Assembly: GCA_025454835.1 (NCBI GenBank)
Contig: JALONQ010000012.1
Span: 1 to 64,000 of the forward strand
Source: Bacteroidota bacterium
GTDB taxonomy: Bacteria > Bacteroidota > Ignavibacteria > UBA10030
Reading direction: 5' to 3'
DNA length: 64,000 nucleotides
Position numbers and translations under genes: made by a program. Under the pieces are notes generated by a model. That model made no database searches, was not told the DNA's origin, and saw nothing but the letters and a program-made list of their open reading frames with translations. Positions 56,397 through 57,151 of this stretch are shown here, in pieces. Each line of letters begins with the position of its first letter. The first letter of the stretch is position 1.

Positions 56397-56649
56397 GGTC
56401 GTCTCGTGCGTTCGTCGGTCGTTACACATGTGCAACATACGCGACAATAGCCTGAGATAGAACGGTCCAACGTCCGAGAAATGGTAATCTCACAGAGAAT
56501 CCCGCGTGATGTGCCTGCCATGGCAAACCGTAGAAAAGACCGCCTCGGGTCGCTTTCCCCAAAACAACAAAGCCGACCCTTGCGAGCCGGCTTCAAGAAA
56601 GCACCATCCAACAATCTTCAATTTACATTCTACAATTTACGATGCTCCG

Positions 56650-56724
56650 TCGGGATGAGAGGATTCGAACCTCCGGCCTCTTGCGCCCAAGGCAAGCGCT
56701 CTAACCGGGCTGAGCTACATCCCG
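56650..56724 (-). tRNA. tRNA-Pro(TGG)
   Basis: Intact cloverleaf. Acceptor CGGGATG pairs fully with CATCCCG, discriminator A, anticodon stem CTTGC/GCAAG with loop CTTGGGC, anticodon TGG (reads CCA and probably CCN). T-arm GGAGGTTCGAATCCTC. CCA is not encoded. Confidence 0.95.
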
Positions 56725-56772
56725 AATGAGACTGCAACAACATCGAACAACGATACTAGCGCCGGCCTCTTG

Positions 56773-56836
56773 TCCGTCCCGTTCGTTGTACGAACGGGAC
56801 GAGATCTCGTCCCTTCGACTACGTCGAAGGGACGGA
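56773..56836. repeat. 64-bp twin-hairpin insert 1
   Basis: tccg - hairpin - agatct - hairpin - cgga. First stem cgtcccgttcg/cgaacgggacg, second cgtcccttcga/tcgaagggacg. Terminal 8-bp inverted repeat tccgtccc/gggacgga. Confidence 0.9.
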
Positions 56837-56849
56837 CGCCCAAGGCAAG

Positions 56850-56913
56850 TCCGTCCGTTCGCTGTTTGAACGGACGAGATCTCGGTCGCTCTGAGATAGT
56901 CGGAGCGACCGGA
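56850..56913. repeat. 64-bp twin-hairpin insert 2
   Basis: Same length and plan as insert 1 with different stem sequences: cgtccgttc/gaacggacg and cggtcgctc/gagcgaccg around agatct, ends tccg/cgga. Confidence 0.9.
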
Positions 56914-56955
56914 CGCTCTAACCGGGCTGAGCTACATCCCGAATGAACCTATTGT

Positions 56956-57013
56956 CCGGGCTGCCTGCCCCCCGAAGCTCCGTCAGGAGCGGAGGGGGGA
57001 GCTACATCCCGAA
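56956..57013 (-). pseudogene. Third tRNA-Pro 5' fragment with 36-bp hairpin insertion
   Basis: tRNA text ccgggctg (56956-56963) and agctacatcccgaa (57000-57013) are contiguous in the intact gene but separated here by a 36-bp GC-rich palindrome (56964-56999) inside the D-arm. The rest of the tRNA is absent. 57014-57151 shows no gene. Confidence 0.8.
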
Positions 57014-57151
57014 GACAAGGCAAAAGTGAGAAGGAAGAAGTGAAACGTGAAAAGATGATCGGATACCAGCTCAAGGCGAAGCAGTCTGCCGAAAAGCGAC
57101 CATCAGCACACATCAAGGTACGGAACGGCGGGAGGGAATGCAAAGCGCTGT

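Follow-up and report, generated by a model that had tools for sequence, protein, structure and literature searches.

Small double-hairpin palindromes in interrupted tRNA gene copies of an Ignavibacteria order

The locus described here raises the question of how truncated copies of a tRNA-Pro gene came to be split by hairpin-forming inserts, and what these inserts are. It lies in a window of 64,000 nucleotides (the whole stretch of DNA that was analysed) from a Bacteroidota bacterium, whose genome is referred to as G000. The first-pass annotation of this window had offered two readings, namely a palindromic element family that targets tRNA arms or a hairpin-containing array derived from a tRNA.

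The interrupted tRNA-Pro copies

The intact gene and its interrupted copies, listed by position, are all read on the minus strand.

56568..56595, minus strand: terminator-like hairpin downstream of the intact tRNA (consensus scan only)
56649..56724, minus strand: intact tRNA-Pro, anticodon TGG (ARAGORN; Rfam RF00005, 70 bits)
56725..56761, minus strand: 37-bp spacer from copy 2 to the intact tRNA, without tRNA similarity (from sequence)
56762..56772, minus strand: copy 2, tRNA nt 42-52, 11/11 identical to the intact gene
56773..56836, minus strand: family-1 insert of 64 bp at nt 41|42, a double hairpin (two stems of 12 bp, loops of 3 nt)
56837..56849, minus strand: copy 2, tRNA nt 29-41, 13/13 identical
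56850..56913, minus strand: family-1 insert of 64 bp (double hairpin) at nt 28|29, with a counterpart of changed stems at the same tRNA position in genome G001
56914..56941, minus strand: copy 2, tRNA nt 1-28, 28/28 identical
56942..56955, minus strand: 14-bp spacer from copy 3 to copy 2 (from sequence)
56956..56963, minus strand: copy 3, tRNA nt 13-20, 8/8 identical
56964..56998, minus strand: copy 3, D-arm insert of 35 bp, a single imperfect hairpin of a different family
56999..57011, minus strand: copy 3, tRNA nt 1-13, 13/13 identical

In the sense of the tRNA, copy 3 lies farthest away, followed by copy 2 and the intact tRNA-Pro(TGG), and both copies are truncated; the copies had been placed downstream of the tRNA, which holds on the plus strand only, as they are upstream in the tRNA's own sense. 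Removal of the inserts from copies 2 and 3 gives back the exact tRNA sequence, just as the annotation had stated. It was also right about the two 64-bp inserts in copy 2, which have length and plan in common and differ in stem sequence, and their placement on either side of the anticodon segment can be refined: one, at nt 28|29, precedes the anticodon stem, and the other, at nt 41|42, falls just within the 3′ strand of that stem. The D-arm insert of copy 3 had been given as 36 bp and measures 35 bp with one base ambiguous. The array folds much better than shuffled sequence (z = −7.3), and an Rfam scan of the window returned no family beyond the intact tRNA. Self-splicing introns were rejected on account of the size of the inserts, this Rfam result and the truncation of the interrupted copies.

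Chance can be excluded as the source of the pattern, because many related genomes contain the plan TCCG-gap-CGAGATCTCG-gap-CGGA whereas its reversed control gives zero matches. An assembly error is unlikely, because the array lies in the interior of a 77.6-kb contig and the separately assembled congener G001 carries a family element with different stems at the same tRNA position. Low-complexity strings stand on either side of the array (56610-56640, caatttacattctacaattta; 57025-57045, cttcttccttctcactttt) and recur near tRNAs and at intergenic sites in this genome and its relatives.

Plan, pairing and range of the elements

Both 64-bp inserts follow the plan TC-[CG-stem1-CG]-AGATCT-[CG-stem2-CG]-GA, which defines family 1. 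The recurrence of these units in related genomes had been named as a check, and the forward plan found paired elements in many genomes of the order, compared with zero matches for the reversed plan in 61 genomes (matches without pairing, in coding sequence, were discarded by a pairing test). Thirty distinct family-1 elements were obtained, in which 57 of the 60 hairpins are distinct, and the arms of an element pair with each other at 97%, compared with 57% for swapped arms. The ends and the 10-nt centre, on the other hand, are identical in many genera and at many sites. The claim that the stems are kept paired was thereby borne out; as to its further claim that this happens by compensatory change, the data fit selection and arm-to-arm template correction alike.

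The first stem of the G001 element at tRNA-Pro nt 28|29 keeps its outer letters, differs inside and stays paired. In the 3-kb tRNA-Pro locus of G001, neither of the genes that adjoin tRNA-Pro in the window was matched, and the case for orthology of the two inserts therefore consists only of their tRNA position and the stem letters they share. In G021, near-identical copies of one element were found on five contigs inside another palindrome, a copy number that is uncertain because several copies are at contig ends. A pattern search found no element-free copy of this host palindrome; a similar sequence without the element is visible among the contexts read. In G000, a tRNA-Phe 5′ remnant with an element is repeated at the starts of contigs C2 and C46 (L074 and L128), apparently fragments of a single array at which the assembly broke.

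Related plans with other constant letters were found in tRNA remnants (CCCG..AGGCCT..CGGG, TCCCG..AGGATCC(T)..CGGGA and TGC..AGCATCCT..GGA). The outer letters are repeated in the centre, TC/GA occurring with A-GA-TC-T, CC/GG with A-GG-CC-T and TCC/GGA with A-GGA-TCC-T, and because of this repetition the unit is, judging from its letters, best taken as two hairpins that would each be closed by 2-3 base pairs and each carry a one-base bulge. A search of 98 genomes of the order for a minimal form of 30 nt, xyzGCCnnnGGCz′y′x′ twice, found it in 32 (reversed control, zero), and the same 30-nt element stands at unrelated sites in many genomes. Six IMG/VR viral contigs (L378-L383) match the 30-nt double-hairpin pattern. 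In G012, four tandem tRNA-Pro 3′ ends (L036:1040-1345) each carry a 30-nt double hairpin in the T-loop, and two T-stem alleles alternate among them. Downstream of tRNA-Val(TAC) on contig C3 of G000 (L132), a complete copy of tRNA-Val contains four inserts, 52-132 nt long, including one AGGCCT-core double hairpin.

The range of family 1 is narrow. A contig scan gave 17 stretches, nearly all from Ignavibacteria or Bacteroidota MAGs, and nearly all of the 30 distinct elements come from one Ignavibacteria order. The strict pattern was present in 4 of 197 genomes of the class, all four belonging to the order of the window, and was absent from the sampled genomes of the other orders of the class. 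One paired element was found in an Omnitrophota MAG (L116), a match in Terrimonas was unpaired and was set aside as chance, and no family-1 element was found in viral contigs.

Insertion sites and tRNA remnants

With the adjacent intact tRNA as the empty site, the inserts are exact and show no target-site duplication. Among 42 remnant inserts from four genomes, the base before the insert was G in 29 and the base after it was C in 20, and 23 of the 42 sites fell in tRNA loops (39% expected), which is a modest excess. Strict loop targeting was accordingly rejected, the preceding G being the stronger rule. The site rule is thus largely a short sequence, after G for these inserts and typically TTC^RAA for the 30-nt form.

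Family-1 elements are strongly enriched in tRNA-derived DNA: of the 37 whose context was read, 18 are in remnants of tRNA genes (Pro, Ser, Met, Phe, Thr, Leu, Arg), among them all five in G000 (Pro twice, Ser, Met and Phe). A joined-flank test of 40 sites of the 30-nt form matched a nearby tRNA in 11, mostly in its T-loop. The proposed palindromic family with a fixed plan and hypervariable paired stems was therefore recovered, but tRNA arms are not its only target, since roughly half of family 1 and the majority of its 30-nt relatives are elsewhere, several in loops of other palindromes. The other reading offered at the outset, that one tRNA gave rise to a hairpin array, becomes superfluous, as remnants of Ser, Met, Phe, Thr, Leu, Arg, Gly and further tRNAs carry the same elements.

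Such remnants are frequent in these genomes. Same-strand partial self-copies scoring 15 or more were found in 55 of 294 tRNA flanks of G000, G001, G014 and G007, a count that includes a few cross-matches between neighbouring related tRNAs, compared with 1 of 294 when flanks were swapped between tRNAs. Three further genomes from the order had remnants at 11 of their 50 tRNAs, compared with 1 of 42 tRNAs outside it; they are a trait of the lineage. Their geometry is mostly a 5′ part upstream and a 3′ part downstream, as would be left by a partial tandem duplication that spares one intact gene. Tandem units of element, tRNA piece and spacer occur three times in G004, twice at tRNA-His of G014 and four times at tRNA-Pro of G012; those in G004 (L277, contig C4) lie downstream of an intact tRNA-Gly and consist of double hairpin, tRNA-Gly 3′ half and spacer. 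Outside the order, a tRNA-Ser 3′ remnant (L317) is interrupted by a hairpin pair of about 60 nt, which suggests a similar process in another Bacteroidota lineage.

Origin of the elements and known analogues

These inserts are probably non-autonomous, REPIN- or DHE-like mobile palindromes that landed in tRNA copies which partial duplication had rendered dispensable. Partial tandem duplication of a tRNA locus, which occurs in these genomes, would supply dispensable and foldable landing sites, the intact tRNA keeping the cell alive while the truncated 5′ copies would be dead, and at the present locus two dead tRNA-Pro copies would have been invaded by very small non-autonomous palindromes. Each is a tandem hairpin pair whose short ends and centre are fixed (TC...AGATCT...GA) and whose stem sequence is free. 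Insertions lack a target-site duplication and fall usually between G and a pyrimidine, often in a loop or at a helix junction of a sequence that can fold, for instance a tRNA gene or a further palindrome. What we infer is movement of the palindrome in trans, by an enzyme that would recognise its folded single strand, and the above order of events; a change of position from one strain to a close relative was not seen. The stems would drift yet stay paired by compensatory change or arm-to-arm template correction. Nothing in the data indicates a cellular function, and we read the elements as selfish DNA.

The first-pass annotation knew of no described bacterial system with this layout, but analogues exist, as PMC3733652 and PMC2800124 show for REP dimers or REPINs and for mitochondrial double-hairpin elements, respectively. 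In the RAYT-associated REP dimers and REPINs (PMC3733652, PMC3116915), an inverted pair of small hairpins forms one dispersed palindromic unit, and family 1 has the same organisation. Some dimers of the GTAG and CGTC families sit within other palindromes, and CGTC repeats are present in Chlorobi and Bacteroidetes (PMC3733652). Unlike REPINs, family 1 has hypervariable stems, only the ends and centre being fixed, and tRNA remnants are one of its main hosts. It also lacks a conserved REP hairpin with a GTAG/CGTC tag at the stem end, given the 57 distinct hairpins among 60, and the junction letters seen most often in it, CG-TC, are part of the paired stem, unlike the REP tag. Y1 transposase genes are present in most of these genomes, but a RAYT/REP origin was rejected, as the nine Y1 loci that were read adjoin other, conserved repeats without these elements; no transposase tied to the elements and no parental transposon was found in the search of Y1 genes. 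Loci L268-L276 contain RAYT-like Y1 genes flanked by their own conserved REP-like hairpins, which are unlike between loci.

The mitochondrial hairpin elements of Allomyces and sponges are described in PMC2800124 as short tandem-hairpin units, presumed mobile, some of them in structural RNA genes. As in family 1, two adjacent hairpins with variable paired stems are inserted at dispersed places. They are organellar, unlike the present elements, and the likeness is one of layout, both being too short and variable for homology. To our knowledge, the insertion rule and constant centre of family 1 are not shared by them. Elements of the IS1272/IS1182 type are directed by structure to palindromes and insert there without duplicating the target site (PMC5678879), but they are complete insertion sequences and take the place of the stem-loop they target, whereas the present elements are geneless, measure about 30-130 nt and leave the target in place, as the exact restoration of the tRNA upon their removal demonstrates. 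MITE-like features are the small size, non-coding content, terminal inverted repeats and dispersal; a target-site duplication, by contrast, is not seen against the adjacent intact tRNA. The excerpts of PMC3733652, PMC3116915, PMC2800124 and PMC5678879 describe neither elements in tRNA gene remnants nor double hairpins with fixed ends and free stems, and a search of the open-access literature found no relevant account of palindromes in tRNA remnants.

A different and unlikely origin would be cassettes that carry a tRNA: a palindrome whose loop contains an intact tRNA would insert into a tRNA gene of the same identity, split it and supply a working copy, and repeated rounds would leave nested remnants, 5′ upstream and 3′ downstream. 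At tRNA-Trp of G007 (L227), upstream nt 1-35 and downstream nt 35-74 pair mutually (ACGTCAG/CTGACGT) and not with the intact gene between them (ACGTGAG/CTCACGT); at tRNA-Thr of the same genome (L156), a perfect 12-bp inverted repeat (TCCCGATGCCGC/GCGGCATCGGGA) with TC..GA ends encloses the intact tRNA within an older split tRNA-Thr; at tRNA-Pro of G001, one stem allele is common to the remnant halves and another is found in the intact gene; and tRNA-Met of G000 has remnant 1-58 upstream and 59-75 downstream. Split halves of an older tRNA around a younger intact one are unexplained by simple tandem duplication. However, a general inverted repeat around intact tRNAs had to be rejected, as there is no overall enrichment and pairing does not exceed that of shuffled sequence, which makes the cassettes a minority reading. 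Moreover, most loci have one-sided remnants, the 5′-upstream/3′-downstream geometry can also arise from partial tandem duplication without cassettes, and the window's own locus has no upstream/downstream remnant pair. We consider it rather unlikely that mobile palindromes with an intact tRNA in the loop renew the essential tRNA genes of the order from within, the double hairpins of remnants being the empty form of the same element. In L227 the intact tRNA-Trp is nested in the anticodon loop of the older split tRNA-Trp; the upstream split is at the same nucleotide in G000 (L130), and related remnants are present in G001 (L179).

It is quite improbable that the hairpins arose locally and without transposition, from slippage and template switching during replication of foldable tRNA genes, with arms homogenised by quasi-palindrome correction. 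Palindromes and tRNA genes are slippage hot spots, and the frequent tandem partial copies and sequence-free stems would agree with such an origin, but slippage at unrelated loci cannot yield identical constant letters, and the ends and 10-nt centre are shared by many genera and sites while the 30-nt element stands at unrelated ones. Still less credible is a functional tRNA-derived RNA, in which the interrupted copies would be transcribed as a structured leader that tolerates insertions as long as the fold is kept: upstream copies often retain the exact nt 1 and the arm order and the array out-folds its shuffles, but truncation points vary, copies lie on either side and are absent beside most tRNAs, Rfam recognises nothing but the intact tRNA, and equal elements occupy non-tRNA sites. 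An assembly artefact, or scars left by integrases whose attachment sites are tRNA 3′ ends, could account for some 3′ ends downstream of tRNAs and some loci at contig ends but is hardly tenable, given a contig-interior array, a pattern repeated in independent assemblies, and upstream 5′ halves and exact internal inserts that are unlike integrase products.

Mobile palindromes in dispensable tRNA copies are thus the preferred explanation, and what emerges seems to be a family of tiny mobile palindromes, so far undescribed, at many tRNA genes of one order. Its novelty lies in a definition by structural grammar, not by sequence, across elements of about 30-130 nt, which similarity searches miss. 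The adjacent intact tRNA is a built-in empty site for each remnant insertion and therefore makes target choice and the order of duplication directly readable. Should the nested cases be cassettes, they would represent an unusual route for replacing essential tRNA genes.
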